Below are positions 7,934 to 35,969 of a DNA stretch of 37,150 bases, one piece after another; position 1 is the stretch's first letter; each line of letters starts with the position of its first letter. Location: the IMG/VR virus record IMGVR_UViG_3300024346_006454, positions 1 through 37,150 of that record. One strand, written 5' to 3'. Origin of the DNA: a virus. The notes under the pieces were generated by a model. The model did not search any database. It saw only the letters and a list, made by a program, of their open reading frames with translations, and had not been told where the DNA came from. Made by a program: the position numbers and the translations under genes.

Positions 7934-7960
7934 TGTATAATATCAAGAACGGAGCAAAAA

Positions 7961-13649: not shown

Positions 13650-14489
13650 ATGGCGACATACAGCAGTTATAAGAAGATTACTTCGGAAGGAATACCAGAT
13701 GGATCTATTACTAGATCTAAGCTGACTCCTGGAGCAGGCGCTTGTCGTAGAACGCAATGGGTGTTTAACGAGCGTGGTATGCAATGCCATATGTGTGCTA
13801 GAAATAGTGGCTGTTGTCAACAGGCAAATGGTAGATGTTGTTACTGGTGTGCACCAGACAATGTTTATAAAGTAACATTTGAAATCTGGGGCGGTGGCGG
13901 CGGTGGTCCAGGACACACATGTTGTAACTGTTGTTCTTTTGCTATTGGCGGAGCAGGTGGTAACTATGCAATACAAACGGTAGATACTAATCCAGGATGT
14001 CAATATAGTGTTTGTGCTGGCGGAAGTTGGCCATGTGGTAAATCACATACATGTTCAGCGGGCATGGGTTGTAAATCCTATGTTAACGGTCACAACCTAA
14101 GTAACTTTTGTGTTACTGGTGCATGTGGCGGTTGGATGTGTAATGGAGACGCATGGGGTCAAAGACATGCTGTATCAAACTGTGCTAACTGTTTAATTTG
14201 TGGAATATTTGGTGCTGACTTCGGAATGATGGGCGGCATGGGTATGAAAGCAGGTACAACAACTTGTAGATGTCACGGACAAACAGGTTGGACAGGAGCG
14301 GCCGCAGGTATGGGTGTATACGCTGGTACAACTACCAACGAAGCATGGTGTGCTTGTGGATGTCATATTGTTTGGCCATCAGGCGGCGGCGTACCAGGAA
14401 CATCTAGTTACTGTAACAACTGGGCAAAATGTTGTTCAGGTGGTTCAGGTCAAGGCGGATCTGGCATAGTAAAGATAACATTTGTATAA
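13650..14489 (+). CDS. Cys/Gly-rich adhesin-like protein, copy 1 (279 aa)
   Basis: First of three tandem paralogs. N-terminal leader MATYSSYKKITSEGI...SITRSKL, then (V/F)NERGMQC, a Cys-studded segment and VTFEIWGGGGGGPGHTCCNC. The last resembles the glycine-rich tail-fibre-tip domain in which a strand ending in (I/V)W leads into a Gly run. I count about 31 Cys in 279 residues, many as CC, CxC or CxxC, which is very unusual for a phage virion protein. The C-terminus ends GGSGQGGSGIVKITFV. Gly-rich loops recall polyglycine-II adhesins such as T-even-type gp38, but homology is not demonstrated. The region at ~195-250 varies between copies, as expected for receptor-contacting loops. Whether the Cys form disulfides or bind metal is unknown. 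Confidence 0.75.
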   Translation: MATYSSYKKITSEGIPDGSITRSKLTPGAGACRRTQWVFNERGMQCHMCARNSGCCQQANGRCCYWCAPDNVYKVTFEIWGGGGGGPGHTCCNCCSFAIGGAGGNYAIQTVDTNPGCQYSVCAGGSWPCGKSHTCSAGMGCKSYVNGHNLSNFCVTGACGGWMCNGDAWGQRHAVSNCANCLICGIFGADFGMMGGMGMKAGTTTCRCHGQTGWTGAAAGMGVYAGTTTNEAWCACGCHIVWPSGGGVPGTSSYCNNWAKCCSGGSGQGGSGIVKITFV

Positions 14490-14501
14490 GGAAAGAAAAT
14501 A

Positions 14502-15338
14502 ATGGCAACATACGCAAGTTATAAAACATTAACAGCAGACAATTTCCAAGACAATAGTATTACGGCGTCTAAACTAGGTGCAGGCGCTGGTAACAAATAT
14601 TGTGTATTTTGGGTTTATAATGAACGTGGCATGTATTGTCAAGCATGTTCAGATGCTGGCGATTGTTGTGAACAAGCAAATGGTAAGTGTTGTTACTGGA
14701 CAGTTCCAGCTAACACTTCAAAAGTAGTATTTGAAATTTGGTCAGGTGGAGGCGGTGGCGCAGGCGCTACTTGCTGTAACAACTGTACACACTCTGCAGG
14801 TGGATCAGGCGGTAACTACGGTGTAAAAACTATTAATACATGTCCAGGTTGTACATATTCAATTTGTGCAGGTGGAACATGGCGTTGTAGTAAATCACAT
14901 ACTTGTGTAGCAGGTATGGGTTGTAAGAGTTATGTTAATGGGGCAAATTTAAGTAATTTTTGTACAGTAGGTGGATGTCCAGGTTGGATGTGTAACGGTG
15001 GTGCATGGGGACCAAACCATACACAAACATGTGCAAACTGTTTAATTTGCGGAATTTTTGGAGCAGACTTTGGAATCATGGGATCAACCGGAGTAACAGG
15101 CGGACACGGTGGATGTCAATGTAAATCAGCAGACTGGGGAATGTCAGGTGCGGCACCTTTTGTAGGCAGACATAGTGCAGGTGCAAACGCAGAAGCGTGG
15201 TGTAACTGTGCATGTTATGTTAACTGGCCAGCAGGCGGCGGACAAACAGGACAGAGTTCATATTGTGGTAACTGGGCAAAATGTTGTGCAGGTGGTAATA
15301 TGGGCGGATCAGGCATGGTAAGAATAACATTCGCATAG
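14502..15338 (+). CDS. Cys/Gly-rich adhesin-like protein, copy 2 (278 aa)
   Basis: Second tandem paralog, starting 12 bases after copy 1 with a GGAAAG Shine-Dalgarno-like tract. It has the same architecture: leader MATYASYKTLTADNF...SITASKL, (V/Y)NERGMYC, VVFEIWSGGGGGAGATCC, and the conserved core CKSYVNGANLSNFC and CGIFGADFG. About 30 Cys. It differs most after CGIFGADFG (VTGGHGGCQCKSADWGMSG) and in losing one Cys of the YWC motif (YWT here). It ends MGGSGMVRITFA. The duplicated and diverged tip region suggests alternative receptor or antigen variants. Confidence 0.75.
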   Translation: MATYASYKTLTADNFQDNSITASKLGAGAGNKYCVFWVYNERGMYCQACSDAGDCCEQANGKCCYWTVPANTSKVVFEIWSGGGGGAGATCCNNCTHSAGGSGGNYGVKTINTCPGCTYSICAGGTWRCSKSHTCVAGMGCKSYVNGANLSNFCTVGGCPGWMCNGGAWGPNHTQTCANCLICGIFGADFGIMGSTGVTGGHGGCQCKSADWGMSGAAPFVGRHSAGANAEAWCNCACYVNWPAGGGQTGQSSYCGNWAKCCAGGNMGGSGMVRITFA

Positions 15339-15350
15339 TAAGGATAAGAA

Positions 15351-16190
15351 ATGGCAACATACGCAAGTTATAAAAAAGTAGCAAATGACAGCATAACAGA
15401 CGCATCGATTACCTCAGCAGATATTGCTCATGGTAATGGTAACAACATGGGTGTGCAATGGATCTACAACGAACGTGGCATGCAATGTCATCAGTGTGCT
15501 AGACAATCAGGTTGTTGTCAGCAAGCAAACGGTAAATGCTGTTACTGGTGTGTACCAGATGGTGCAAGTACAGTAACTTTTGAAATTTGGTCAGGCGGAG
15601 GCGGTGGCCCAGGCCACACTTGTTGTAACTGTTGTTCATTTTCAATTGGCGGCGCTGGAGGCAATTATGGGTCTAAGACTATTGCAACATCTCCAGGATG
15701 TCAGTACAGTGTATGTGCTGGTGGTGCTTGGCCGTGTGGTAAAGCACATACTTGTGGTGCAAGTATGGGTTGTAAGAGTTATGTAAACGGACATAACTTA
15801 TCGAATTTTTGTACAGTAGGCGGCTGTGGTGGCTGGATGTGTAACGGAGACGCATGGGGTCCAAGACACACTCACTTTGGTTGTGAAAACTGTAATATAT
15901 GCGGAATTTTTGGAGCAGATTTTGGAATGATGGGATCTACAGGATGGGAGCCAGGACATGGTTACTGTCACTGTGTGTATCAGTATTCAGGATCAGGACA
16001 ACCTCCATTAATTGGTAAAATGACAGTATCAGTAACTAGCGAAGGATGGTGTAACTGCGGTTGCCATATTGAGTGGCCAGCAGGTGGCGGAATGCCAGGC
16101 GTTAGTTCATATTGTGGTAACTGGGCTAAGTGCTGTGCAGGTGGATCTGGACAAGGCGGCTCAGGCGTTGTTCGAATAACATTCATGTAA
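15351..16190 (+). CDS. Cys/Gly-rich adhesin-like protein, copy 3 (279 aa)
   Basis: Third tandem paralog, 12 bases after copy 2. Copies 2 and 3 share an identical coding start (MATYASYK) at DNA level, and copy 3 is otherwise closest to copy 1 in the first half (QCARQSGCC, YWC, GPGHTCCNCCSF). About 30 Cys. The variable region (STGWEPGHGYCHCVYQYSGSG) is unlike both other copies, while the C-terminus GGSGQGGSGVVRITFM is conserved. This mosaic pattern is what recombination among tandem adhesin genes would produce. A late octamer follows the stop codon. Confidence 0.75.
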   Translation: MATYASYKKVANDSITDASITSADIAHGNGNNMGVQWIYNERGMQCHQCARQSGCCQQANGKCCYWCVPDGASTVTFEIWSGGGGGPGHTCCNCCSFSIGGAGGNYGSKTIATSPGCQYSVCAGGAWPCGKAHTCGASMGCKSYVNGHNLSNFCTVGGCGGWMCNGDAWGPRHTHFGCENCNICGIFGADFGMMGSTGWEPGHGYCHCVYQYSGSGQPPLIGKMTVSVTSEGWCNCGCHIEWPAGGGMPGVSSYCGNWAKCCAGGSGQGGSGVVRITFM

Positions 16191-16219: not shown

Positions 16220-17011
16220 ATGAGAAAAATTGAAAAAACATTTACTTACCCAATTTGGGACGAGTGGAGAAAAAATAGTTTTGAAAACGGAAGAACCGGC
16301 ACCTTTACTTATAAAGGTCCTGAATTTTTAACGTTTGAAGTAGGTAATGACCCTGCAGATACAGACAACTACCAAAAAGAATCTGGTTGGTGTTTATGGG
16401 AAAAAGCGGATCTTGAAAGACCAACTGCCGCAGATATTACAAGAGTTACTGTTGACTGTAAAGAAAATCCTTTACTATGTGAAATTGGTAATGATGATGG
16501 TAAAGAAGAAGGTGTACAATTAAGACGTCAAAGAGAATGGAAAGTTCTTTGGGACGCTCCAGACGGTTATATGGACGTTGAATACACAGACGAATTAGAG
16601 CCAAGAGACGTATATGACGATCAAAACATCACATATGATTTTGCTACAGAAACATTTAATATTGGTATTCATGATTGGGCCGCTACAGGTACAAAAATGG
16701 ATCTAACATGGCAAGATCTTAGAGATGTTAGAGATTCACAATTACATGACACAGACGCTAAAGTTGGACAGACAGATGCTCCTGAATCTATTCAACAGAC
16801 TTGGAAAGATTACAGACAAAGACTAAGAGATTTGCCAGCTTGGGCACAAGCAAACGGCTACGAGCCATGGCAAGCAGTTATGATGTTTCCTACAGTACCA
16901 AAAGATATGCGTGATCCAGACGCATCAGCAGATCCAGAAGATCCGTACAGAGATGGTGCATTTGCTATTGACGTAGCAGTTGCCGCTCAAAAGGTTGCAG
17001 GTAAAAAATAG
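16220..17011 (+). CDS. Protein with tail-assembly-chaperone-like C-terminal domain (263 aa)
   Basis: Residues ~164-226 contain TWQDLRDVRDSQLHDTDA, then DAPESIQQTWKDYRQRLRDLPAWA. This matches the pattern of the phage tail assembly chaperone domain (Phage_tail_APC type: R..RD..L..TD, W..YR..LRDLP). The N-terminal ~160 residues are acidic with two Trp-containing strands and no recognised family. It directly follows the three adhesins and ends at a strong terminator, as expected for a fibre/adhesin folding or attachment factor (compare the placement of T4 gp38 or lambda Tfa, by analogy only). It has its own late octamer and AGGAG site. Confidence 0.7.
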   Translation: MRKIEKTFTYPIWDEWRKNSFENGRTGTFTYKGPEFLTFEVGNDPADTDNYQKESGWCLWEKADLERPTAADITRVTVDCKENPLLCEIGNDDGKEEGVQLRRQREWKVLWDAPDGYMDVEYTDELEPRDVYDDQNITYDFATETFNIGIHDWAATGTKMDLTWQDLRDVRDSQLHDTDAKVGQTDAPESIQQTWKDYRQRLRDLPAWAQANGYEPWQAVMMFPTVPKDMRDPDASADPEDPYRDGAFAIDVAVAAQKVAGKK

Positions 17012-17036: not shown

Positions 17037-17059
17037 AAGGGCCACTAGGCCCTTTTTTT
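17037..17059 (+). terminator. Rho-independent terminator after the fibre/adhesin block
   Basis: Stem AAGGGCC (17037-17043), loop ACTA, stem GGCCCTT (17048-17054), running into a seven-T tract (17053-17059). It lies 25 bases after the stop of the chaperone-like gene and separates the structural block from the enzyme operon. Confidence 0.85.
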
Positions 17060-17096: not shown

Positions 17097-17104
17097 AATA
17101 AATA
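17097..17104 (+). promoter_or_regulatory. T4-type late promoter octamer AATAAATA before the enzyme operon
   Basis: AATAAATA lies 23 bases before the TTG start at 17128 and downstream of the terminator. It is the only promoter candidate I see for the enzyme block and suggests late expression together with virion genes. Confidence 0.5.
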
Positions 17105-17127: not shown

Positions 17128-18189
17128 TTGGAACGCAAAAAAGCATATTTTATCAACGGTGGAGCAGGCAGAGTTGTCGCAAGTATTCCAGCGTTTGAAA
17201 AACTCTACAAAACAGATCAAGACTTTATTATTGTTTGTGAAGGAGGAATGGACTTTTATAAAGGTCATCCGCAACTACATGAACTAGCATACGACAACTG
17301 GCATAAAAACTTGTTTAAAGATTATATTAAAGACAGAGATTGTTACTCACCAGAACCATACAGAGTTTGGGAATATTATAATCAAAAGTGTAGTTTAGCA
17401 CAAGCATTTGATATTGCAATTAATAACGAAGGCGTTAGAGATTTACCTGACCCAACAATACATATGAACAAGCATGAACTTGTACAAGGTTATAAAGTTG
17501 TTGAAGAAATTAAAGCAGTAACAGGTAAAGACAAAGTAGTAGTGTTTCAACCATTTGGTCGTACAGCCGAAAACATGGGCGACTTTGTAATTGACGGTAC
17601 AAGCAGAAGCTTTCATCTAAATGATGTTATACGTATTTGTAAAGATTTACGTGATGACTATGCTGTAATTATAATGAGCGAATTTCCTGTTGTAGTTGAA
17701 GAAAATACTAAAGTTCCGGTAGCAGTTCCACAAATACCCGATGTAAGAGTATGGTCAAGTGTAATTCAAATTGCTGATCATTTTATTGGATGTGATAGTT
17801 TAGGACAACATATGGCAAAAGCATTAGGGACAACATGTACTAGTGTTATTGGAAGTACATATCCAATTAATATTTCTTATCCTAATTCTCCTGACTTTGA
17901 TATTATTGATCTAGGAGAAGGTAGACGTAAGTTTAGTCCTATTAGACTTACAATGGAAGATTCAATTGAAAGATTTAATGACGAAGTTATGGAGTTAACC
18001 GATGAAAGTTTTAAAAAGATTATTACAAGTGCTCGCAAGCGTTTGGGGAAACCAAGAAGTTACACAGGAAACTACAAACCGCAACAAGAGCAAGGGGAGG
18101 TCTGCCCAACTCATGGAGTAGTACATGCAGATGGGGCATCACATGGTAATAAACAACAAGCAAAAATCTTAGGTCATACAGGTCAGTAA
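17128..18189 (+). CDS. GT9 (ADP-heptose transferase-like) glycosyltransferase (353 aa)
   Basis: The N-terminal INGGAGRVVASIPAFEKLYK matches the glycine-rich first loop of heptosyltransferases (G.GD......PA...L). The C-terminal half has VVVFQPFGRTAENMG (~residues 132-148) and ADHFIGCDSLGQHMAKALG (~210-228), which corresponds to the GT9 nucleotide-sugar signature D-S-G..H. GT9 enzymes move ADP-heptose onto lipid A-core sugars, and related ones modify proteins. Three ADP-heptose biosynthesis homologs are encoded in the same window (25536-26099, 35093-35923, 35953-37101), which supports a heptose donor. The start is TTG with a good AGGAG site. The ~30-residue tail (CPTHGVVHADGASHGNK) is His-rich and unlike GT9. 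First gene of the enzyme operon; acceptor unknown. Confidence 0.7.
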   Translation: MERKKAYFINGGAGRVVASIPAFEKLYKTDQDFIIVCEGGMDFYKGHPQLHELAYDNWHKNLFKDYIKDRDCYSPEPYRVWEYYNQKCSLAQAFDIAINNEGVRDLPDPTIHMNKHELVQGYKVVEEIKAVTGKDKVVVFQPFGRTAENMGDFVIDGTSRSFHLNDVIRICKDLRDDYAVIIMSEFPVVVEENTKVPVAVPQIPDVRVWSSVIQIADHFIGCDSLGQHMAKALGTTCTSVIGSTYPINISYPNSPDFDIIDLGEGRRKFSPIRLTMEDSIERFNDEVMELTDESFKKIITSARKRLGKPRSYTGNYKPQQEQGEVCPTHGVVHADGASHGNKQQAKILGHTGQ

Positions 18190-18190
18190 A

Positions 18191-18790
18191 ATGAGCGATC
18201 CGATAGAATCACCAGATCAGTTTCTAGGAGGCATTTCAACAATGTTTGATCCTAGTTCAGAAAGGTTACAGGCACTTGATACATGGGTAGTAGATGATTT
18301 ATACTATGCGGGTTATAAAAAGTTTTTAAAGTTGTTTGATAATTCTAACGATCGACATGTTGACTATGGTAACGGAACTTTATATTATAAAAAAGATATG
18401 CAATATCCTACAGACATTGATCCTAGAGAAGAGTACTTGTCCTTTATTAAGTTTCAATTACAAAATTTGCCTATTAGAATAAAAGATTTTAAAAAAGCAT
18501 GGGGCGTAAAATATCCACCAGGTGCATACAGCGGATTACATTCACATCAACCTGGAAAACAACTAACAAGTGTGTTATTTTTAGACACACCAAACCCAAG
18601 TGTAGAATATCCTTTAGCAGGTTGTTTAACTACACTACAGCCAACAAACAGTGAAATCACTTACTTAACACATAAGCCTATTGAAGGCAAAATGGTAATC
18701 TTAGATGGTAAAGTATGGCACGGATCTTATCCTACACTAGAAGATAGACATGTATTTGTTGTAGACTTTGAATATGAAGGTGTAATATAG
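18191..18790 (+). CDS. 2OG-Fe(II) oxygenase-like protein (199 aa)
   Basis: The C-terminal half has YPPGAYSGLHSHQPGK (His117, His119), a LTSVLFLDT strand, and GKMVILDGKVWHGSYP (His177) followed by Arg186 in a VFVVDFEY strand. This is the double-stranded beta-helix pattern of short phage 2OG-Fe(II) oxygenases. The acidic ligand of the usual HxD/E is not evident after His119 (HQP), so iron binding may be atypical or lost. The gene begins one base after the GT9 stop, and its stop overlaps the next start (TAGTG). It is a tandem paralog of the next gene. Likely substrate: a protein, peptide or sugar made by neighbours; unknown. Confidence 0.65.
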   Translation: MSDPIESPDQFLGGISTMFDPSSERLQALDTWVVDDLYYAGYKKFLKLFDNSNDRHVDYGNGTLYYKKDMQYPTDIDPREEYLSFIKFQLQNLPIRIKDFKKAWGVKYPPGAYSGLHSHQPGKQLTSVLFLDTPNPSVEYPLAGCLTTLQPTNSEITYLTHKPIEGKMVILDGKVWHGSYPTLEDRHVFVVDFEYEGVI

Positions 18791-19395
18791 TGGATATAGA
18801 AACTTTAGATACTACATATCAAGGCGACAAAGACTTTTTTTGGCTATGTTATAACGGACGTATACCTGACTATTGGATTAGTAAAGACAAATATACAGAC
18901 TATAGTAAATTTTTAGAACTATTTGATAATCCACCAAAGTCGCATGTAGATTACGGCGGCGCAGTAATACAATATAAAGACGATGACTTTACATATCCTT
19001 ATAATATAGATCAACAAGGTCTATATCTAGAGTGGATTAAAAAATCTATAGAAAAGTTTCAGTTTAAAAATGTAAAATTTAAAAAGTGTTGGTGGCTAAC
19101 ATATCCAAAGAATACTTTTTCAGGATTACATACACATGAAGATAGAGGACAACGCACAATGACCTGTGTTATGTTCTTAAACACAATATCAGTAAGCACA
19201 AAAACACCATTAAATGGTAAATTAAAAGCAATTACTATGAATCCTGTAACAGGTGAACTAGTAAGTGATATGATAAAATGTATAGCAGGCGATGTAGTGG
19301 TTATGGATGGTAAAGTTTACCATGGTGTATATCCTACATTAGAAGAAAGAAAAGTATTTGTAGTTGACTTTACGTATGATGTAGAGATCGACTAA
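18790..19395 (+). CDS. 2OG-Fe(II) oxygenase-like protein, paralog (201 aa)
   Basis: It starts at GTG 18790, overlapping the previous stop by one base. It shares with its neighbour KFLELFDNP....HVDYGG, SGLHTHED and GDVVVMDGKVYHGVYPTLEERKVFVVDF. Candidate ligands are His114, His116 with Asp118 (HED) and His178, with Arg187 as a possible 2-oxoglutarate contact. Unlike the preceding paralog it keeps an HxD. It probably hydroxylates a substrate shared within this operon. A 79-base gap follows, the longest inside the enzyme block, with no clear promoter. Confidence 0.65.
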   Translation: MDIETLDTTYQGDKDFFWLCYNGRIPDYWISKDKYTDYSKFLELFDNPPKSHVDYGGAVIQYKDDDFTYPYNIDQQGLYLEWIKKSIEKFQFKNVKFKKCWWLTYPKNTFSGLHTHEDRGQRTMTCVMFLNTISVSTKTPLNGKLKAITMNPVTGELVSDMIKCIAGDVVVMDGKVYHGVYPTLEERKVFVVDFTYDVEID

Positions 19396-19474
19396 TGATA
19401 AGGTTCAGTTCTTGTCAGCAATCACCAGGATTGCAAATACATATAGTATATAAAGAAACATAAAAGGAAACAAT

Positions 19475-21304
19475 ATGACACAGTGGATTGGAGCAATCAC
19501 AAGAGGACATAACGGCGGCGCCGTATTATTAAAAGATGGTGAAATTGTATTTTCAATCGAAGAAGAACGTCTAACTCGAAAGAAATACGACGGTGGACCA
19601 CTTGCCGCAATGATTAAATTCCTTGATTACACAGATAAATTAGATTATCTTGTAGTAGCACATACACAACCATTAGCAGAATCAAGTAGAATTGACTTTA
19701 GTGGAGGTGATATGTATACAGGACTAGCAAGGAAACTAGGACTAATTGATAGAAACGATAATGCTTACACAGCAGATGGCCAACACAACCATAGACAAGT
19801 AATTGACCTAAGTCATATACATCATAAACTACATGCGGCATGTGCATTTTATCGTTCGGGATTTGAATCAGCAGTAAGTGTTATTGTTGATGGAGCAGGT
19901 ACATTTATACCAATGAACATTAACATGGGTGTGTTTAACGAAGAATATATGTCATGGGAATGTGAAAGTATCTTTAATTGTGCATACCCTGATAACTTTA
20001 AAACTTTATATAAGCACCAAGGTGGTAATGGACCTTTTCCTGGAACACGTATTCCGTACATTCCATCAGATCGTGAAGGCGAAGAAGGATTCCATGAACT
20101 TGTATTAGATGATAGTGCAGGTATTGTTAAAGCATACGAAGCAGTAACACAATATTGTGGATTTCAACCTATTGAAGCAGGTAAAACTATGGGACTTGCT
20201 CCATATGGTAAGAAAAATTCAAATATTCCACCAATTTATACCGACGGCAATGGAGGCAAGTGGCGTACAAGTGATAGAAATGTTGTTATTCCTACATATC
20301 CAAACGCGGCCTTAGTAAATGAAGCAAAATATGAGTATTTAGAAACATCACAAGATATAATTGATAGTAAAACTGACCTAACTACCCAAGAAAATCGTAG
20401 AGACTTAGCATTTGCAGTACAAGAAGGATCACAACAGGAAGTATTAAACCTTATTTTTAAAGCAGTTGAAATGTCTGGTAATAAAAACGTAGTACTAAGT
20501 GGCGGCTATGCACTTAACTGTGTTGCAAACTACTGGTACCTTGATAAATTGAACAAAGAAGGTATTAAGTTATATGTTGAACCTGTTAGTAACGATGCAG
20601 GTACAGCAATGGGTGCGGCTATGTTAGTATATCATCAAACTACCAAAGACAAAACTGTAAGACATTATGCAGAAACAATCTACGAAGGTTTTGAGTATAC
20701 ATATACTAATGAGCAAATTGAAGACACTGCAAACAAGTATGGTGCTACAATTATTGACGCTGATAAAGAATTAGTTGTAGAAATGATTAGAAATAAGAAC
20801 ATTGTTACTATGTTTCAAGGTAAAAGCGAAAACGGACCACGTGCATTAGGTAATAGAAGCATATTATTTGATCCAACATTTGAAGACGGCAAGGATTACG
20901 TAAACAAAGTAAAGCGTAGAGAGTATTTTAGACCCTTTGCTGGAACAATTATGTTAGAGTATGCACACGAATGGTTTGATATGCGTGGACTAGAGCAAAC
21001 ACCGCATATGATGTATGCAATGGATTGCCAAGAAGGCATTGCAGAAAAGATTCCAAGCATCATTCATGTTGATGGTACTTGTAGAATTCAAACTGTAACC
21101 AGAGAACAGAACAAACACTACTACGAGCTTATAGAACAATTCCATAAAGCAACAGGAGTTCCAATTATTTTCAATACTAGTTTTAACTTAGGTGGCGAAC
21201 CACTAGTTGAAACTCTAGATGATGCTGTACGTACACTTTATAATAGTGAGATGGAGTATTGTTACCTACCCGAGTATGGCAAACTAATTGAAATGAAGAA
21301 CTAA
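19475..21304 (+). CDS. Carbamoyltransferase, NodU/CmcH family (609 aa)
   Basis: Full-length for the family. N-terminal Kae1-like domain: MTQWIGAITRGHNGGAVLL, IEEERLTRKK, the metal/ligand motif HIHHKLHAACAFYRSGF, SVIVDGAGTF, KTMGLAPYGK and NVVLSGGYALNCVAN. C-terminal domain: GKSENGPRALGNRSILFDP, REYFRPFAG and GVPIIFNTSFNLGGEPLVET. These enzymes transfer carbamoyl from carbamoyl phosphate via a carbamoyl-adenylate to hydroxyl or sugar groups (nodulation factors, cephamycins, O-antigens). In this operon of hydroxylases and a glycosyltransferase it probably carbamoylates a hydroxyl on a glycan or modified residue. AAAGGAAA precedes the ATG. Its stop overlaps the next ATG by one base (TAATG). Family assignment is secure; the acceptor is unknown. 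Confidence 0.9.
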   Translation: MTQWIGAITRGHNGGAVLLKDGEIVFSIEEERLTRKKYDGGPLAAMIKFLDYTDKLDYLVVAHTQPLAESSRIDFSGGDMYTGLARKLGLIDRNDNAYTADGQHNHRQVIDLSHIHHKLHAACAFYRSGFESAVSVIVDGAGTFIPMNINMGVFNEEYMSWECESIFNCAYPDNFKTLYKHQGGNGPFPGTRIPYIPSDREGEEGFHELVLDDSAGIVKAYEAVTQYCGFQPIEAGKTMGLAPYGKKNSNIPPIYTDGNGGKWRTSDRNVVIPTYPNAALVNEAKYEYLETSQDIIDSKTDLTTQENRRDLAFAVQEGSQQEVLNLIFKAVEMSGNKNVVLSGGYALNCVANYWYLDKLNKEGIKLYVEPVSNDAGTAMGAAMLVYHQTTKDKTVRHYAETIYEGFEYTYTNEQIEDTANKYGATIIDADKELVVEMIRNKNIVTMFQGKSENGPRALGNRSILFDPTFEDGKDYVNKVKRREYFRPFAGTIMLEYAHEWFDMRGLEQTPHMMYAMDCQEGIAEKIPSIIHVDGTCRIQTVTREQNKHYYELIEQFHKATGVPIIFNTSFNLGGEPLVETLDDAVRTLYNSEMEYCYLPEYGKLIEMKN

Positions 21305-21903
21305 TGCTGGTAAACTTATATTCGATTCCAGTATATAAGATAAAACTACCGGAGCATGAACAAGTACAACAAGACTTTGCTGATATACTTGATAAAGATG
21401 AGTATTTTAGTAAAATTCCTTCTTGGTACAGTCCTGTGGATACTACATATGGTAACCCTGATGCTTCAAACTTACCATTTAAGACATTTATTAGATCAGC
21501 AATTACCGGACTAAACGAATATCTTGAAAACTTTAGTATAGACTTAACATTAGACTATAGGATTGAATGTTGGCTCAATAAGTATAATCCGGGCTCATAT
21601 CAAGAAGTACACAACCATGTAGGAGTATCACAAATTAGTTGTGCATACATGATGCATACTCCTAAAGACAGTGGTAACTTTGTATTCTACAACAAAGCAT
21701 ATGATTTTTTGCATCAGTCAGGTCTTCCATCATTAACTACACAACCATTTAGATACAATAATAGAGTAACACCTCCTTTAGAAGAAGGTGATATTGTATT
21801 TTTTCCTAGTAACCTAGAACATTACGTATCTAATAATACTAGCGACCAAGTAAGGTCAACAATTAGTGCTAATTTTGTACTATCGGAGAAACAAGATGAT
21901 TAA
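21304..21903 (+). CDS. 2OG-Fe(II) oxygenase-like protein (199 aa)
   Basis: NLYSIPVYKIKLP at the start and YNPGSYQEVHNHVGVSQISCAYMMHTP...GDIVFFPSNLEHYVSNNTSDQVRSTISANF match the short TIGR02466-like oxygenases common in marine myoviruses. Visible ligand candidates are His103 and His105 (HNH) and His173, with Arg184 for 2-oxoglutarate. As in the 18191 gene, the acidic ligand is not obvious. The ATG overlaps the carbamoyltransferase stop by one base, and the end overlaps the next gene by eight bases, indicating coupled translation. Confidence 0.75.
   Translation: MLVNLYSIPVYKIKLPEHEQVQQDFADILDKDEYFSKIPSWYSPVDTTYGNPDASNLPFKTFIRSAITGLNEYLENFSIDLTLDYRIECWLNKYNPGSYQEVHNHVGVSQISCAYMMHTPKDSGNFVFYNKAYDFLHQSGLPSLTTQPFRYNNRVTPPLEEGDIVFFPSNLEHYVSNNTSDQVRSTISANFVLSEKQDD
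21885..21888 (+). promoter_or_regulatory. Shine-Dalgarno GGAG choosing the start at 21896
   Basis: GGAG seven bases before ATG 21896 favours that start over the earlier in-frame ATG at 21866, which would add ten residues without a comparable site. Confidence 0.6.
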
Positions 21904-22615
21904 AAATACAATTAACGAAGAAGAAACATTTGCTGTCAACGAAGACTACGACACAAGATTATACAAGTTTGGAAAAGCAGGTGTACATGTATTAGTAGTG
22001 GATAACTTTTATAAAAATCCACACTTAGTAAGACAACTTGCTTTAGATATTCCAGCATCTGTTAATAGACGTATTAGAGGCGGCAACCCTGCACTACGAA
22101 TTAATGCATTTTATGAGCTATCAAGTCTAGCTCAACCATTTCACCACTTAGCATCAGAGTTTTTTCCAGAGATAATGTATCAGTACGAACCAGGATACAT
22201 GGATAGAAGTTTTATGAACGCAACATTTATGATTAATGTTATGCAATCAGAAGGATTGCCTCCACTTGCACCACATCAAGACAATCGATCAGGCATGAAT
22301 CTTGCTAGTACAATCTATCTAAACAACGAAAACGAATCTGCTGGCGGAACAAGTTTTTACGAGTTTGGTGGCAAACACTTTTATACTGACAGTGTAGTAG
22401 AGAATGATTTTCACGTTACTATGGATGTAGAAGGTAAGATTCCAGTAACACAATACATTACTGATAGTTCACATGACTGGAAAATGATTGGAATGATACC
22501 AATGGTGTTTAATAGAATGGTATTATACAATCAGGCAGTATTACATACTGCATATGTTAAGCCAGGTATGTTTGTAAATGATAACTACAGAATGAATCAG
22601 CAGTTTTTTATATAG
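21896..22615 (+). CDS. DUF6445-like protein, 2OG-oxygenase-type fold (239 aa)
   Basis: Start ATG 21896 is chosen for its GGAG site. The sequence holds VLVVDNFYKNPHLVRQLAL, APHQDNRSGMNLASTIYLN (His127-Gln-Asp129), GGTSFYEF, NRMVLYNQAVLHTAY (His217) and NYRMNQQFFI. This matches the DUF6445 pattern, a double-stranded beta-helix protein often found near tryptophan halogenase genes in bacteria. Here the halogenase is two genes downstream. The HxD...H triad is complete, so iron-dependent oxidation is plausible but not proven. Overlaps the preceding gene by eight bases. Confidence 0.7.
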   Translation: MIKNTINEEETFAVNEDYDTRLYKFGKAGVHVLVVDNFYKNPHLVRQLALDIPASVNRRIRGGNPALRINAFYELSSLAQPFHHLASEFFPEIMYQYEPGYMDRSFMNATFMINVMQSEGLPPLAPHQDNRSGMNLASTIYLNNENESAGGTSFYEFGGKHFYTDSVVENDFHVTMDVEGKIPVTQYITDSSHDWKMIGMIPMVFNRMVLYNQAVLHTAYVKPGMFVNDNYRMNQQFFI

Positions 22616-22624
22616 GAGAATAGC

Positions 22625-23206
22625 ATGGATGATAACTTTGATGGAGTAGAAGTATATGATAATGTATATCCGATTGACTTTTGCAAACAAGTAATTAAAA
22701 GATTTGAAGAGCTGTCTTCAATGCAGATGACTGCAATACAACAGCAAGGTATTGATAGAAATCAAGACGAACGTATATACATGGACTGGGCAAATCACAA
22801 CAGTCATTACCATGCTGACGAAGATTTATGTAAATTTTTCTTTGAAACCCTAAACAAAACGTATTTAGAAAAGTATAAAACAAAATACGAGAGCTTAGGA
22901 TTATTATTTCAACATACAGCAAAAGGTATGAGTGTCCAAAAAACAAAACCACACCAAGGATACCACGCATGGCATTGTGAAAATGCAGATGTACCAACAA
23001 GTACTCGAGTATTAGCATACACATTATATTTGAATGGTGTTGAAGAAGGCGGCGAAACAGAGTTCTTGTATCAAGGACATAAAATCAAACCTGCACCTGG
23101 AAGATTAGCTATCTTTCCTACATCATTTACGCATCCACATCGGGGCAATCCTATCTACAAAGGCGTTAAGTACATTATAAGCGGATGGTATACATTAGAC
23201 CACTAG
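22625..23206 (+). CDS. Prolyl-4-hydroxylase-like 2OG-Fe(II) oxygenase (193 aa)
   Basis: HAWHCENA (His117-x-Glu119), RVLAYTLYLNGVEEGGETEF, GHKIKPAPGRLAIFPTSFTHPHRG (His170/His172) and VKYIISGWY (Lys182) follow the P4H-type layout: HxD/E, eGGeTeF, PxxGrLaiFP, distal His, then a basic 2-oxoglutarate contact. This is the most canonical oxygenase of the block. AGGAG precedes the ATG. It may hydroxylate Pro or another residue on a virion or host protein. The substrate cannot be told from sequence. Confidence 0.85.
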   Translation: MDDNFDGVEVYDNVYPIDFCKQVIKRFEELSSMQMTAIQQQGIDRNQDERIYMDWANHNSHYHADEDLCKFFFETLNKTYLEKYKTKYESLGLLFQHTAKGMSVQKTKPHQGYHAWHCENADVPTSTRVLAYTLYLNGVEEGGETEFLYQGHKIKPAPGRLAIFPTSFTHPHRGNPIYKGVKYIISGWYTLDH

Positions 23207-23213
23207 GAACAAA

Positions 23214-24671
23214 ATGAAAATAGCAGTAGTAGGTGGCGGCACAGCAGGCTTTGTGTCAGCGTTAATATTAAAAACAAGTTTTCCAAACTTTGAAATTGAT
23301 GTAATTCGATCTACCAAGATTGGAACTATCGGTGTAGGTGAAGGTAGCACAGAACATTGGTCTGCCTTTATGGATTTCGTTGGTATTCAAACAGGTGAAC
23401 TTATTAATGAATGTGATGCTAGTTTTAAATCTGGTATTATGTTTGAAGACTGGAGTGAGAAACCATACTTACAAAGTGTTCATGAGCCATACGTTGCCGA
23501 ACAACTAGGTGCACCAATTGCATATGCTAAATTAATTGGTGAAAAGGTAGATGCTAGAGAGTTAACAGGTGAATACCTTTGGAATAATGAAACACCATTT
23601 AATAAATTTATGGACGAGCGTCCTAATGACACTGGAGTAGCACAATATCATTTTAATACTGCAAAGTTAAATGACTTTTTAACTAAGTTTGCAATAGACA
23701 AAGGTATTAACGTTATTGATGATGAGATTACTAGTGTAAATGTTAGTGAATGGAACAAAGTACAAACAATACAAGGCGAAAAAGAATTATATGATTACGA
23801 TTTTTATATAGACTGTACAGGATTTAGTCGTTTACTAATTAGTGCAGTTGGTTCTGAGTGGCAAAGCTACAGTAAGTATCTTAAAATGAAAGAAGCTATT
23901 GTGTTTCCCACACCAGAAGGAGATGAAATACCAATATGGACACTTGCAAAAGCAATGGATGCTGGTTGGATGTTTCGTATACCTGTTCAAGGACGCACCG
24001 GCAATGGTTATATATTTGATAGTGATTTTATTACAGCTGAACAAGCACATACTGAAGTTGAAAAATATTTAGGACACGGTGTTGAAGTAGCAAAACATAT
24101 TAAATTTGATCCAGGCACACTTGACAAAGCATGGATTAGTAATGTATGTGCTATTGGACTAAGTCAAAGTTTTGTAGAACCATTAGAAGCAAGTAGTATT
24201 GGTAGTAGCATTAATCAAACATTCTTATTAGCACAACGTCTTGTAAATTATAATGAAGAAACAATTAATAGATATAATCTTGAAGTTACTGCTATTATGG
24301 ATAATATTAGAGACTTTATTGTACTACATTATATTACTGAAAGAAGAGACACACCGTTTTGGAAGGCAGTATCAGAAGTAACTTTACCAGATAGTTTAGA
24401 TAAAAACTTACGTATGTGGAAAGTCAGAATGCCAATTGCTGACGACATGACTACACATACTAAAAAAGTTTTGTTTAACGAATATAACTATGCATTAGTG
24501 ATGCATGGACTAGGATTATTTGATAACGAAAGTATTTTAAAACAATATGAAACAGTTCCGCAAGGAGCAAAGGATCATGTTGAACAGTCAATACAACACA
24601 AATTAGAATTTGATAAAACAAAAACTATTCCTCACAAATTAATGCTTCAATTGTTGCGGAGACTAACGTGA
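23214..24671 (+). CDS. Flavin-dependent tryptophan-halogenase-family enzyme (485 aa)
   Basis: FAD motif VVGGGTAGFVSALILK (residues 5-20) and GVGEGSTEHW (40-49). FKSGIMFEDW has Lys72 in the place of the catalytic Lys of PrnA-type halogenases. DCTGFSRLL (~200-208) is a further FAD contact. GWMFRIPVQGRTGNGY (251-266) corresponds to the WxWxIP halogenase motif with Phe254 in place of the second Trp. GLSQSFVEPLEASSIG (315-330) holds the conserved FVEPLE. A related viral enzyme, VirX1 of cyanophage Syn10, is known to halogenate (notably iodinate) diverse substrates. No flavin reductase is seen in the window, so the host would have to supply reduced FAD. Its stop overlaps the next start by four bases. 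Substrate unknown; peptidyl Trp or a small molecule are both possible. Confidence 0.85.
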   Translation: MKIAVVGGGTAGFVSALILKTSFPNFEIDVIRSTKIGTIGVGEGSTEHWSAFMDFVGIQTGELINECDASFKSGIMFEDWSEKPYLQSVHEPYVAEQLGAPIAYAKLIGEKVDARELTGEYLWNNETPFNKFMDERPNDTGVAQYHFNTAKLNDFLTKFAIDKGINVIDDEITSVNVSEWNKVQTIQGEKELYDYDFYIDCTGFSRLLISAVGSEWQSYSKYLKMKEAIVFPTPEGDEIPIWTLAKAMDAGWMFRIPVQGRTGNGYIFDSDFITAEQAHTEVEKYLGHGVEVAKHIKFDPGTLDKAWISNVCAIGLSQSFVEPLEASSIGSSINQTFLLAQRLVNYNEETINRYNLEVTAIMDNIRDFIVLHYITERRDTPFWKAVSEVTLPDSLDKNLRMWKVRMPIADDMTTHTKKVLFNEYNYALVMHGLGLFDNESILKQYETVPQGAKDHVEQSIQHKLEFDKTKTIPHKLMLQLLRRLT

Positions 24672-25534
24672 GAACATTTGCCTTTGGATGTAGTTTAACA
24701 CAATATTTTTATCCTACATGGGCTGACATCTTAATACATCATTATAAACAAGAAGGTGCCACTGTTGGAGAGAACTGGGGACGTAGTGGTGCAGGTAATC
24801 AATATATTTCAACTCGGCTATGGGAAGCACATACTGAACATAAGTTTAATAAAGATGATATTATCTTATTGCAATGGTCTAGTTTTTTTAGAGAAGATAG
24901 ATTTCATATGGGCAAAGGCTGGCACACTCCAGGTAACTTTAGTAAATCAACAGTAGGACAAGACATTCCGTTTGTACTTAACAGTTGGCGGTACGAGTCT
25001 ATGTGGCAATGGGCTGACATGGCCTGGGCTACAATGCGTGATTGTGCATTAATAAGCAGTACACATAAAGCATTAGAAAGTTTAGGATGTAGAGTTATAT
25101 CCACAGGATTTAGACAACCTACTGAAGGTTGGGACGAACTTAGTAAAGAATTTAATACTAAAAATAAATATTTAGAATTAGAAGATGTAAGAGCTATATT
25201 AGAAAAATATAAAGACGATATTAAAACTACATGTCCACCAATACTTAATGCACTAGGATTTGGAGTTGACGACGAGTTTTTTAAAACAAGACCAACTAGT
25301 ATACCTGATCCAAATCCAGAACTTTTACACTTACATCAGCCCGAAGTACACCCACTTACACACGAAGCGGCAGACTTTGTACAAGAACATATATGTAAAT
25401 TAAATAACAAAACATTAGCCTTTGTTGACAAATGGAAGCAAACATTGACAGCTGAAGGATCAATAAAACTTTACGAATTAGACTGGTTCAACTCAGAAGT
25501 ACATGGCTGGTCAGACGATAGATGGAGACCTTAG
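24668..25534 (+). CDS. SGNH-hydrolase-like protein (288 aa)
   Basis: It starts at GTG 24668, overlapping the halogenase stop by four bases. Block I is FAFGCSLT with the candidate nucleophile Ser9. Block II is ENWGRSGAGNQYI (Gly38, Asn44), and LLQWSSFFRE fits block III. Near residue 226, PEVHPLTHEAADFV fits block V with the catalytic His, and Glu stands where Asp is usual (DxH). SGNH proteins of marine phages are usually annotated as putative esterases or acyltransferases. Here it could add or remove acyl groups on a glycan. Its end abuts the next gene. The catalytic Ser-His pair is visible; the assignment is moderate. Confidence 0.65.
   Translation: MRTFAFGCSLTQYFYPTWADILIHHYKQEGATVGENWGRSGAGNQYISTRLWEAHTEHKFNKDDIILLQWSSFFREDRFHMGKGWHTPGNFSKSTVGQDIPFVLNSWRYESMWQWADMAWATMRDCALISSTHKALESLGCRVISTGFRQPTEGWDELSKEFNTKNKYLELEDVRAILEKYKDDIKTTCPPILNALGFGVDDEFFKTRPTSIPDPNPELLHLHQPEVHPLTHEAADFVQEHICKLNNKTLAFVDKWKQTLTAEGSIKLYELDWFNSEVHGWSDDRWRP
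25524..25527 (+). promoter_or_regulatory. Shine-Dalgarno GGAG choosing the start at 25536
   Basis: GGAG eight bases before ATG 25536. An in-frame ATG at 25503 would add eleven residues that are not part of the HAD fold and lie inside the previous gene. Confidence 0.6.
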
Positions 25535-25535
25535 A

Positions 25536-26099
25536 ATGAGTACCCCCGTAATAGGACTAGACAGAGACGGAACAATAAATGTAGACATAGGCACATACGT
25601 AACAAAGCCCGAGCAGTTTACACCTATTGAAGGCAGTCTAGAAGCAGTTAAGATGATACGTAACAAGGGTTATGATGTAGTTATTTTAACTAATCAAGCA
25701 GGCATAACAAAGGGTATAATGGATCCGGTAGACGTTGACATTGTTAATAATTATATGTTAGAATTACTTTGGAATATAGGTTGTAGGAGCATCAACGGAT
25801 TGTATTATAGCACATCTAACTTAAAAGAAGACGTATATGCTAAACCTAATACAGGCATGTTTAAGCGTGCCGCGGCAGAAATCGGAGTTGATTGGAAGAA
25901 TGGTGTGTATGTAGGAGATAAAATTAGTGATTTAAAAGCCGCTGTAAAGGCTAAAGCAAAGCCTATACTAGTACGCACAGGACATGGCGCTGAAACAGCT
26001 AAGAAGTTAAATACATTTGCTAACAAAGACCTTAAAAAACAAACAGAAACATTTGATAATCTAAATCAGTTTGCTCATAGCCTAGTAGATTTAACTTAA
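25536..26099 (+). CDS. gmhB: GmhB-like HAD-IIIA phosphatase (D-glycero-D-manno-heptose 1,7-bisphosphate phosphatase) (187 aa)
   Basis: HAD motifs are complete: GLDRDGTIN (Asp9, Asp11), VILTNQAGITKG (Thr52, Asn53), KPNTGMFKRAA (Lys103) and YVGDKISDLKAA (Asp128, Asp132). NQAGI.KG and KP..GM are typical of GmhB and its histidinol-phosphatase relatives. GmhB removes the 7-phosphate in the ADP-heptose route between the two HldE steps. The zinc-binding Cys loop of E. coli GmhB (C...CDCRKP) is absent here (YSTSNLKEDVYAKP). hldE and hldD homologs in the window favour the heptose role. Last gene of the enzyme operon; start two bases after the previous stop. Confidence 0.8.
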   Translation: MSTPVIGLDRDGTINVDIGTYVTKPEQFTPIEGSLEAVKMIRNKGYDVVILTNQAGITKGIMDPVDVDIVNNYMLELLWNIGCRSINGLYYSTSNLKEDVYAKPNTGMFKRAAAEIGVDWKNGVYVGDKISDLKAAVKAKAKPILVRTGHGAETAKKLNTFANKDLKKQTETFDNLNQFAHSLVDLT

Positions 26100-26127: not shown

Positions 26128-26135
26128 GATAAATA
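26128..26135 (+). promoter_or_regulatory. T4-type late promoter octamer GATAAATA
   Basis: GATAAATA in the 54-base gap between the enzyme operon and the second structural block, 18 bases before ATG 26154, with GGAG at 26142-26145. Confidence 0.55.
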
Positions 26136-34668: not shown

Positions 34669-35106
34669 TTAAGGGGTAGTAGTTACAGAACCATCAGCAT
34701 CATCTTCGGATGGTGCTGTTTCCATTTGTGGCTTATGCTTTTGACTATCACCAGGTGCAATACGATAATTGTCTTCAACACTATCAGGTGTACTTACTTC
34801 AGTAACACTACTTCCAGGTTCCATACAAACTAGTTGATGCGGCATTAGTGGAGGATTACGCCATGTCATACCTTCTGTAAGTTCTTGTGATTTATATTCA
34901 GCAGTAGTTGTATCAATATAGTTTAATAAAAATCTTCCGTTATTAACAAACCATGTTTCATCTTTTTCTTTATGAAAGTGCATACTAAACTTAGAACCAA
35001 CTTTTTCAAATACCATAATTTTACCACAGTATAATTCATTAGTTGCCCAAATTACTTCGTAACCCCAGCCTTTATCTACTTTACCTTCTAGTCTAGTTGG
35101 TTGCAT
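34669..35106 (-). CDS. Cupin-domain protein, sugar-isomerase-like (145 aa)
   Basis: Residues ~10-120 form a cupin: KGWGYEVIWATNELYCGKI, SMHFHKEKDETWFVNNGRFLL (His43, His45, Glu50) and MTWRNPPLMPHQLVCMEPGSS (His90), giving the HxH...E...H metal set. The closest pattern I know is the C-terminal cupin of type II mannose-6-phosphate isomerases and other small phage/LPS-cluster cupins. The last ~25 residues (KPQMETAPSEDDADGSVTTTP) are acidic and look unstructured. The start overlaps the hldD end by 14 bases, with AGGAG before it. Its position behind hldE-hldD suggests a role in nucleotide-sugar chemistry, but the substrate is unknown. Confidence 0.75.
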   Translation of the reverse strand: MQPTRLEGKVDKGWGYEVIWATNELYCGKIMVFEKVGSKFSMHFHKEKDETWFVNNGRFLLNYIDTTTAEYKSQELTEGMTWRNPPLMPHQLVCMEPGSSVTEVSTPDSVEDNYRIAPGDSQKHKPQMETAPSEDDADGSVTTTP

Positions 35107-35923
35107 TAATATACTCCTCGATTGTATGCCAGTGTCTTATTGCTATAGCATTATGTAGTTTTGTATTATCTGCACAAGTGTATTCTTGATACTGACTTTT
35201 TAAATGATCTGGCATTGGAATGTATTCAATTTTTGCATCATATCTTTTAGCAATTGATTTAGCAACTTCTTCGACATTAACTGCTTTACCTGTTCCTAGA
35301 TTAAATACACCACAGGTATCAGTTTCATGCATCATTTTTTCATGTACAACAGCAACGTCATGCACACTTACAAGGTCTCTTTTAAATTTGTCGCTACCTT
35401 CAAATAGTTTAATTACTCCGTCTTGACTTGCTTGTTTTTGAAACTTACTAACTAGACTCATTTGATCGCCTTTGTGTCCTTCTCCAGGACCATATACATT
35501 GAAGTATCTAAAGTTTTGTACAAGCATACCAAAGTTTTCGTAGCCGTTTTCTTTTAAAAACTTATCAATTAGATACTTACTCCATGCATAAGGTGTTTGT
35601 GGATAAACAGGATCTGACTCTTTAAAACTAGTGTTGTTACCATAAACAGCAGAAGTACTTACAAGTTGAATATTAGTATTATAATTTTCGCAAACTTGTA
35701 ATAGACGTAATGTAAATTCATAATTATGAGCCCAGACTTTGTCTACATCTCTTTCAGTAGTATCTGATATTGCACCACAATGTATTACCCAATCGTATGC
35801 TGATACGTCTGGAACCACGTGTTCAACCCATTCAAAGCCTTCAACTTCGTGGTCTTTTGATTGTAGATAATTGGCAATATAGCTACCAACAAATCCTTTA
35901 TGTCCTGTTACTAATACTTTCAT
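35093..35923 (-). CDS. hldD: ADP-L-glycero-D-manno-heptose 6-epimerase-like (276 aa)
   Basis: NAD-binding VTGHKGFVGSYI (Gly7, Gly10, Gly13), STSAVYG (Ser91) and the catalytic Y-x-x-x-K (Tyr112, Lys116). The block FRYFNVYGPGEGHKG (138-152), then KLFEGSDKFKRDLVSVHDVA, FNLGTGKAVN and IEYIPMPDHLKSQYQ follow E. coli HldD almost motif for motif. HldD converts ADP-D-glycero-D-manno-heptose to the L,D form. At 276 residues it is shorter than E. coli HldD (310). It lies between hldE and the cupin on the minus strand and is directly preceded by a perfect sigma70-type promoter and an AGAGG site. Confidence 0.9.
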   Translation of the reverse strand: MKVLVTGHKGFVGSYIANYLQSKDHEVEGFEWVEHVVPDVSAYDWVIHCGAISDTTERDVDKVWAHNYEFTLRLLQVCENYNTNIQLVSTSAVYGNNTSFKESDPVYPQTPYAWSKYLIDKFLKENGYENFGMLVQNFRYFNVYGPGEGHKGDQMSLVSKFQKQASQDGVIKLFEGSDKFKRDLVSVHDVAVVHEKMMHETDTCGVFNLGTGKAVNVEEVAKSIAKRYDAKIEYIPMPDHLKSQYQEYTCADNTKLHNAIAIRHWHTIEEYINATN

Positions 35924-35940: not shown

Positions 35941-35969
35941 ATTATACTATCTTTAATTACTATTGTCAA
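35941..35969 (-). promoter_or_regulatory. Perfect sigma70-type promoter upstream of hldD
   Basis: On the minus strand, TTGACA (35964-35969) is followed by a 17-base spacer and TATAAT (35941-35946). Both boxes match the consensus exactly at the optimal spacing. Transcription would start near 35934, about ten bases before the hldD ATG at 35923. The -35 box overlaps the last codons of hldE. Confidence 0.75.

Follow-up and report, generated by a model that had tools for sequence, protein, structure and literature searches.

A glycosyltransferase-carbamoyltransferase-heptose gene unit coupled to Cys/Gly-rich adhesin-like genes in a marine virus: a candidate system for decorating tail-tip proteins

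Why would a virus of bacteria keep a run of tailoring enzymes between two blocks of virion genes, and what might they decorate? The window analysed here (37,150 nucleotides, IMG/VR record IMGVR_UViG_3300024346_006454) comes from a large, uncultured marine bacteriophage. The genome is that of a marine jumbo-myovirus relative, not of an ordinary T4-like phage. The gene psbA, sought as a marker of a cyanobacterial host, was absent from nine related contigs. The ten-gene tailoring block with overlapping junctions reported by an initial annotation did hold up, as 17128-26099 is filled by ten intact ORFs of named families, all on the + strand; four junctions overlap (by 1, 1, 8 and 4 bases) and five have gaps (of 1, 79, 9, 7 and 1 bases). 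Starts better than those of the longest ORF were found at 21896 (DUF6445 protein) and 25536 (HAD protein). The spacing suggests one ten-gene operon. The block and its edges are as follows:

17037..17054, + strand: intrinsic terminator before the block (7-bp stem, then a T run)
17097..17104, + strand: late-octamer-like AATAAATA, 31 bp before the glycosyltransferase start
17128..18189, + strand: GT9-fold glycosyltransferase (GT), predicted ADP-heptose transferase (T4-GC 302; phrog_8954; AlphaFold model, Foldseek)
18191..18790, + strand: 2OG-oxygenase-like protein a, OGa (phrog_81 E 1.6e-9)
18790..19395, + strand: 2OG-oxygenase-like protein b, OGb (phrog_81 E 8e-9)
19475..21304, + strand: O-carbamoyltransferase, NodU/TobZ type (T4-GC 303; PF16861 E 2e-57, PF02543 E 2e-25)
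21304..21903, + strand: 2OG-FeII_Oxy_5 protein c, OGc (PF13759 E 1.6e-15)
21896..22615, + strand: DUF6445 protein, 2OG-like, HxD motif (PF20043 E 5e-20; HQD at residue 127)
22625..23206, + strand: prolyl-4-hydroxylase-like 2OG oxygenase d, OGd (PF13640 E 3e-13; P4H structures E 2e-5)
23214..24671, + strand: flavin-dependent (tryptophan-type) halogenase (PF04820, Trp_halogenase, E 1e-97)
24668..25534, + strand: SGNH-fold hydrolase (model pLDDT 86.8; Foldseek TesA/GDSL esterases E 2e-4, prob 1.0)
25536..26099, + strand: GmhB-like D,D-heptose-1,7-bisphosphate 7-phosphatase, HAD family (PDB 4pnh E 4e-21; NF006506 E 7e-39)
26128..26135, + strand: late-octamer-like GATAAATA, 26 bp before the next gene (virion genes)

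The proposed terminator and late octamers are thus present at the block edges and suitably placed, with the qualification that AATAAATA and GATAAATA carry the T4 late octamer core ATAAATA and differ from the octamer at its first base. Since the core is not over-represented in the window (8 found, 16.7 expected), the argument for late expression comes from placement: all eight cores lie on the + strand and five of them 25-35 bp before an ORF start.

The GT starts at a TTG codon preceded by AGGAG. With phmmer, neither the GT nor the SGNH protein drew more than chance matches from PDB, and we therefore turned to fold prediction. The AlphaFold model of the GT (pLDDT 78.5) matched almost only GT9 / ADP-heptose transferases, the best Foldseek matches being GT9 3tov (E 6e-11), WaaF (E 5e-8) and WaaC (E 1e-7), and TibC also appearing; TM-scores to GT9 structures of about 0.46-0.63 place it in the GT9 fold, and a profile search added a weak match to TIGR02201 (heptosyltransferase III). 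What had been annotated simply as a glycosyltransferase is hence refined to a predicted ADP-heptose transferase, with ADP-heptose as its predicted donor. LPS heptosyltransferases are expected to have an N-terminal catalytic Asp (GD motif); here Arg replaces it in an invariant GGAGR (26 sequences). A four-Cys iron finger of the TibC type, or any other conserved Cys cluster, was not seen in the GT, which has one near-invariant C-terminal Cys, C326.

The remaining family assignments were confirmed. The carbamoyltransferase has both PF02543 and PF16861 above cut-off, as in the NodU/TobZ type, and its PDB relatives include 7xb6 (E 5e-52) and TobZ (E 2e-40); WapO, a related carbamoyltransferase, has been assigned to position 7 of LPS heptose (PMC8005017). 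The halogenase can be aligned with 5lv9, a Trp halogenase, at GGGTAG, FKSG and VEPLEAS, across the FAD motif and the catalytic Lys and Glu regions. Its WxWxIP motif reads WMFRIP. Five 2OG-type proteins were recognised (PF13759, PF13640, phrog_81, phrog_61), the DUF6445 member having a weak PF13640 match, and OGa, OGb and OGc show HxH at the aligned position instead of a clear HxD/E motif. Because the SGNH protein had no Pfam match and tblastn against phage records found nothing, its assignment follows from the fold, at a modest E, and from invariant GCS and ExHP blocks.

The annotated HAD phosphatase proved to be GmhB-like, matching GmhB structures at E 4e-21 to 1e-18 and NF006506 below its curated cut-off. 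It lacks the Cys residues of the zinc loop in E. coli GmhB. Further candidate heptose genes lie near the end of the window:

34669..35106, - strand: cupin (T4-GC 307), neighbour of the heptose genes, with which it travels
35093..35923, - strand: HldD-like ADP-heptose 6-epimerase (T4-GC 308; TIGR02197 E 5e-65; PDB 1eq2 E 2e-42)
35953..37101, - strand: HldE-like heptose-7-phosphate kinase / heptose-1-phosphate adenylyltransferase (NF008454 E 1e-81, TIGR02198 E 5e-52, TIGR02199 E 3e-45)

The HldD-like protein contains YAWSK and NVYGPGEGHKG, its TIGR02197 match being below cut-off, and the HldE-like protein covers both kinase and adenylyltransferase, its three profile matches also falling below curated cut-offs. 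By homology, GmhB, HldE and HldD would make up most of the ADP-heptose pathway. A GmhA isomerase (SIS domain, PF13580) had no match in nine related contigs of up to 261 kb, which are possibly incomplete, and this step may be supplied by the host; the label 'phosphoheptose isomerase' carried by T4-GC 306 has no Pfam match behind it. To the annotation, the block looked like a pathway for one product. Its genes do form a unit, but the pathway extends beyond it to hldE and hldD at 35093-37101, on the opposite strand and with no late octamer.

The block is real, under purifying selection and not a chance assembly, because 26 distinct contigs spanning the region have identical gene order, differing only by loss of OGa, OGb or OGd, and because dN is far below dS in nearly all block genes. 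Block order is kept in relatives at 60-100% identity. The halogenase, OGa/OGb and SGNH genes vary among lineages. The core of GT, carbamoyltransferase and heptose genes is met again in lineages from the sea and from fresh water. The GT and carbamoyltransferase pair is common to cyanophages and this virus: the S-SSM7 proteins are 61% and 68% identical to this lineage versus 48% and 52% to S-CAM3, the reverse of TerL (36% versus 72%). Adhesin type follows the GT across phages. On these similarities the pair has evidently moved between phage lineages, its similarity tracking adhesin type.

The adhesin-like genes lie directly before the block:

13650..14489, + strand: Cys/Gly-rich adhesin-like protein A, candidate substrate (phrog_4205; 11.1% Cys, 19.4% Gly)
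14502..15338, + strand: Cys/Gly-rich adhesin-like protein B (phrog_4205; 10.8% Cys, 18.7% Gly)
15351..16190, + strand: Cys/Gly-rich adhesin-like protein C (10.8% Cys, 19.7% Gly)
16220..17011, + strand: tail-fibre assembly chaperone-like protein (Phage_tail_APC, PF16778, E 2.5e-7)

The S-SSM7 counterpart of protein A matches the PF21722 glycine-rich domain, and a tblastn search of 50,697 phage records with protein C matched only S-SSM7, S-SSM6a and Sf-FS3. Long fibres are encoded at 2336-12802 of the window. A suggested co-occurrence with Cys-rich adhesins across phages was strongly supported: 64/65 distinct GT loci have two to three tandem Cys/Gly-rich adhesin-like ORFs directly upstream, against 0/32 loci without GT (330 kb). 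Whole genomes agree, with three such ORFs each in S-SSM7, S-CAM3 and a 261-kb relative and none in seven GT-negative phage genomes. The carbamoyltransferase follows the GT in 81/82 distinct GT loci, and the halogenase and 2OG genes show no tight tie to it. The proposal of a single decoration system is partly supported: the genes form one unit beside the adhesins and look like such a system, with halogenase, oxygenases and SGNH as variable cargo around a predicted heptose/carbamoyl core. Adhesin Trp content was discarded as a halogenase signature, the Sf-FS3 adhesins being Trp-rich in a genome with no halogenase.

Late-expressed decoration of the phage's own tail-tip adhesins or fibres is, in our judgement, the best explanation, at about an even chance of being correct. 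Given the GmhB-like HAD, the HldE/HldD genes and a GT folding like ADP-heptose transferases, the reading that suits the unit best is a supply of heptose, its transfer and its carbamoylation, with halogenases, oxygenases and the SGNH hydrolase as variable cargo. HldE, GmhB and HldD would convert host heptose-7-phosphate to ADP-heptose; the GT9-fold enzyme would most likely transfer heptose to tail-tip adhesins or fibres, meaning the three Cys/Gly-rich proteins (13650-16190) and/or the long fibres (2336-12802); the carbamoyltransferase would add a carbamoyl group to the heptose; and halogenase(s), 2OG oxygenases and SGNH hydrolase could attach additional groups to these proteins or to the sugar, or trim them. 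What the analysis shows directly is gene content, families, folds, synteny, co-occurrence, horizontal transfer and purifying selection; the activities, the sugar, the order of steps, late expression and, most of all, the acceptor are inferred. More tentatively, and with somewhat less than an even chance, this could be a widespread, horizontally moving system placing carbamoyl-heptose, together with halogenation and hydroxylation, on the phage's own Cys/Gly-rich tail-tip adhesins.

The adhesin link can also be read the other way. While the phage infects, the enzymes might modify a host surface glycan (the receptor) and so keep progeny or competitors from attaching to the infected cell or to its remains, each adhesin type binding the receptor altered by its partner enzymes; we regard this, the main rival, as rather unlikely, while taking it seriously. 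Characterised structures closest to the GT include those of LPS-core heptosyltransferases, LPS is a known site of heptose carbamoylation (PMC8005017), and both the glycosyltransferases and rfaE of the pelagimyophage host recognition cluster (PMC7029224) and the cyanophage 'LPS genes' (PMC3037559) have been interpreted in this way. Against this, cyanobacterial LPS has neither heptose nor KDO (PMC4390846) although cyanophages have the heptose module, which we counted for virion decoration; the block has a late-type octamer; none of its ten proteins has a membrane segment; prolyl-hydroxylase-like and halogenase activities are unusual for glycans; and a lone distant GT homologue lies between tail genes, in tail-fibre operons, of Vibrio phages, with no heptose genes beside it (a search with this homologue gave just two loci). 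That placement and TibC among the fold matches were both counted for virion decoration, as was the position of halogenases and oxygenases in Syn9/Syn10 directly after glycine-rich (PF21722) tail proteins. Counted against it were adhesin proximity, equally expected if the enzymes alter the adhesin-bound receptor, and the Arg for Asp in the GT, the missing GmhA, the hldE/hldD strand, the loose halogenase/2OG tie and the HxH motifs.

Other products are improbable to varying degrees. Antibiotic pathways employ both Trp halogenases and relatives of the carbamoyltransferase (GdmN, NovN, TobZ), so a small diffusible or packaged natural-product-like metabolite, built on heptose or an aromatic amino acid, could be imagined; it is quite unlikely, given that no scaffold-forming enzyme (NRPS, PKS, ligase) was found in the block and that the GT/carbamoyltransferase pair is strictly coupled to adhesin genes. 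We assign a similarly low probability to the view that the genes are loosely connected passengers in a hypervariable tail-fibre island, there as 'stuffer' or for independent functions, and have no product in common. Lineage differences in halogenase, OGa/OGb and SGNH would fit, as would the 'stuffer DNA' idea raised when asking whether cyanophage 'LPS' heptose genes are functional (PMC3037559), but the gene order kept over large divergence, dN far below dS and the recurrent marine and freshwater core argue otherwise. In phages, hypermodification of DNA also draws on oxygenases together with glycosyltransferases and carbamoyltransferases. That the block places glycosyl, carbamoyl or hydroxyl groups on DNA bases is nonetheless highly improbable: a base-modifying nucleotide enzyme was not found in the block, the GT is GT9-like rather than DNA glucosyltransferase-like, and the block sits between late virion genes.

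The individual parts and the cyanophage heptose 'LPS genes' are already known; in the papers searched we found neither the unit as a whole nor its association with adhesins described. That a GT9-fold transferase and a carbamoyltransferase are almost perfectly coupled to tandem Cys/Gly-rich adhesins, also among cultured cyanophages, gives a concrete substrate hypothesis. If true, it would mean heptosylation and halogenation of a virus receptor-binding protein, and phages that chemically decorate their receptor-binding tips, with a bearing on host range and adhesin evolution. It would also offer a native substrate for viral halogenases such as VirX1, for which the available portion of one review gives none (PMC8407142).

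VirX1 (cyanophage Syn10; PDB 6qgm) belongs to the same flavin-dependent halogenase family as the window's enzyme, at a distant 26% identity or so; its gene adjoins glycine-rich tail proteins and 2OG oxygenases and has neither GT302 nor heptose genes as neighbours. Mycobacteriophages, too, are described as glycosylating virion proteins by means of their own genes (Freeman et al. 2023, cited through PMC12619734), there on capsid and tail tube. The autotransporter heptosyltransferases TibC and AAH share the GT9-like fold and, by prediction, the ADP-heptose donor, and they act on bacterial adhesins, TibC by heptosylation (PMC4358343); adhesins are the hypothesised acceptor here. They differ in their four-Cys iron finger and in TibC's adjacent autotransporter, in whose place the GT has phage fibre and glycine-rich adhesin-like proteins. 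The pelagimyophage cluster, a variable island that lies between baseplate and neck genes, likewise brings tail fibres together with glycosyltransferases and rfaE, and is read as O-chain modification of the host with no mention of a halogenase or carbamoyltransferase (PMC7029224). A further close counterpart is the fibre-GT302-CarbT303-heptose cluster of cyanophages S-SSM7, P-SSM2, S-CAM1, S-CAM3 and Sf-FS3, annotated as LPS or hypothetical genes, the 'LPS genes' including T4-GC 304, 305, 307 and 308 (Sullivan et al. 2010, PMC3037559). Core virion genes differ, as does the cargo, the window having GmhB, DUF6445, SGNH and several 2OG genes, but both share one gene order, which runs from the fibre through the Cys/Gly-rich proteins and the GT to the carbamoyltransferase and the heptose genes.

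The tailoring-enzyme block lies within an entire virus contig of 37,150 bases, which we place in a marine jumbo-myovirus lineage because the tail-sheath stabiliser of a near relative is closest to those of the jumbo phages Atu_ph07, PA5oct and Phosso and a related record reaches 261,806 bases; psbA occurs in none of the related contigs. The features concerned are:

Left of the block: long tail fibres (phrog_9851)
Left of the block: three Cys/Gly-rich paralogues (phrog_4205)
Left of the block: fibre-assembly chaperone-like gene
17037-17054: terminator before the block
17097: octamer AATAAATA before the block
17128-26099, plus strand: the block, in the order glycosyltransferase (GT), two 2OG-oxygenase-like proteins, carbamoyltransferase, 2OG, DUF6445, 2OG, halogenase, SGNH, HAD
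26128: octamer GATAAATA at the opening of the next virion genes
Right of the block: connector and giant virion protein
Beyond these, minus strand: cupin, epimerase, PfkB+nucleotidyltransferase gene

Ten intact, tightly packed ORFs on one strand, overlapping by 1, 1, 8 and 4 bases at four junctions and separated by 79 bases at one, bear out the ten-gene block with 1-8 base overlaps at several junctions described in the initial annotation, and the borders it named, a terminator and octamer on the left and an octamer on the right, were all located. Most starts have a ribosome site in front. The octamer core is not over-represented across the window, where five of its eight copies lie 25-35 bp before ORF starts.

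Cassette order is constant across IMG/VR relatives. All ten genes are present in 11 of the 26 distinct contigs that cover the interval end to end, the others lacking only the 2OG-like proteins OGa, OGb or OGd, and in these 26 dN is well under dS for nearly all block genes. Among more distant relatives the heptose genes are merged into the block (locus L140), and others carry extra halogenases upstream of hldE. The cyanophages S-SSM7, P-SSM2, S-CAM3 and Sf-FS3 share one order, fibre, Cys/Gly-rich proteins, GT, carbamoyltransferase, heptose genes and epimerase, located with fibre genes on one side and more tail or neck genes on the other, and found again in most of 44 further loci; the one stretch of S-CAM1 examined has GT, carbamoyltransferase and heptose genes. 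Similarity of S-SSM7 to this lineage is 61% for GT, 68% for carbamoyltransferase and 36% for TerL, and to S-CAM3 48%, 52% and 72%; GT and carbamoyltransferase contradict TerL, so this pair has moved from one lineage to another.

GT matches no Pfam family and shows a mere trace of heptosyltransferase III; its predicted structure first matches the GT9 enzymes 3tov, WaaF, WaaC and the adhesin heptosyltransferase TibC, so that a GT9 fold is predicted, and from context its donor is probably ADP-heptose. Judged by sequence, the HAD protein is GmhB-like, the PfkB+nucleotidyltransferase protein HldE-like and the epimerase HldD-like, at scores under the NCBIfam curated cut-offs, as often happens with divergent phage versions; no GmhA was detected in related contigs. 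The zinc-loop cysteines of E. coli GmhB are missing from the GmhB-like protein (25536-26099), whose substrate may therefore be shifted. P-SSM2 T4-GC 306 (L151:18024-18368), labelled 'phosphoheptose isomerase', is a 114-aa protein that matches no Pfam family, contains no SIS domain and is likely misannotated; the same seems true where 2OG and DUF6445 proteins are labelled 'DNA endonuclease V' or 'minor coat protein'. A distant GT homologue in Vibrio phages is flanked by tail genes and has no heptose genes adjoining, and their gammaproteobacterial hosts normally make ADP-heptose. In freshwater-type relatives (L226-L235) two tandem GT copies flank the carbamoyltransferase, with no halogenase or HAD genes in the covered part. 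The carbamoyltransferase itself has both NodU/TobZ domains, and carbamoyl-heptose is a natural prediction since heptose position 7 is the assigned site of the related Pseudomonas enzyme WapO (PMC8005017).

As to the remaining cargo, the halogenase keeps its catalytic Lys and Glu regions and the SGNH protein has a predicted TesA-like fold. At the aligned position three 2OG-like proteins (18191-19395, 21304-21903) read HxH, with no clear HxD/E metal motif, so hydroxylase activity is not assured. Close relatives carry two extra flavin-dependent halogenase genes directly upstream of hldE (L166:11885-14880, minus; L170:2298-5284), a position just past the window's right end, giving three halogenases in this lineage. 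In the related cassette L174:5155-8269 the stretch separating carbamoyltransferase from halogenase encodes further variable cargo, one radical-SAM protein plus two proteins without assignment. As recorded, the S-PM2 halogenase gene (W06, 121319-122608) contains a single in-frame TAA and probably represents a pseudogene. In Syn9 and Syn10, the latter the source of VirX1, two halogenases and several 2OG oxygenases come immediately after glycine-rich (PF21722) tail proteins, with no GT, a hint that tail-tip proteins are accompanied by halogenase cargo as well.

The co-occurrence of these enzymes with Cys-rich adhesins, the check proposed at the outset, held across phages: two to three ORFs in tandem, their Cys content about 7-12% and their Gly content about 12-21%, lie directly upstream of GT in 64 of 65 distinct loci with enough upstream DNA, as against 0 of 32 loci (330 kb) without GT, the GT loci not being independent draws because they were collected mainly via two GT queries and some GT-less loci being later parts of the same cassette only. 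These ORFs are present even where similarity to the window's adhesins is undetected, and PF21722, a glycine-rich domain, is recognised in two of their products. Adhesins resembling those of the window occur in exactly those cultured phages with the closest GTs. Within the whole genomes of S-SSM7, S-CAM3 and the 261-kb relative such ORFs stand solely next to GT, and seven GT-negative phages (S-PM2, HTVC008M, syn9, P-TIM40, S-RIM44, P-TIM68, Sf-CH8) have none. Downstream of GT, the carbamoyltransferase follows in 81 of 82 distinct loci.

The best reading, to which we give an even chance, is that the cassette would act late, adding (carbamoyl-)heptose and other groups to adhesins at the tail tip or to fibres. 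Its strongest rival, modification of a receptor glycan, is the view taken for pelagimyophages (PMC7029224) and predicts the adhesin linkage too; we consider it rather unlikely. Cyanobacterial LPS lacks heptose and KDO (PMC4390846), so routine construction of the LPS core is an improbable use for an ADP-heptose pathway in a cyanophage. Synthesis of a small molecule by the enzymes and a collection of unrelated cargo are each improbable, and modification of DNA is highly improbable.

Viral halogenases are already known (PMC8407142), and the cyanophage heptose 'LPS genes' and their co-occurrence have been published with function left open (PMC3037559). No paper that brings halogenase, carbamoyltransferase, heptose and phage together turned up in full-text search. 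Judging by the open-access papers searched, three points seem not to have been described before: the fold assigned to the GT, the connection with GmhB and the association with Cys/Gly-rich adhesins. Among characterised enzymes, LPS heptosyltransferases have Asp in the N-terminal motif where the window's GT has Arg (GGAGR), and TibC has iron-finger cysteines that this GT lacks, so we assign it to neither group.
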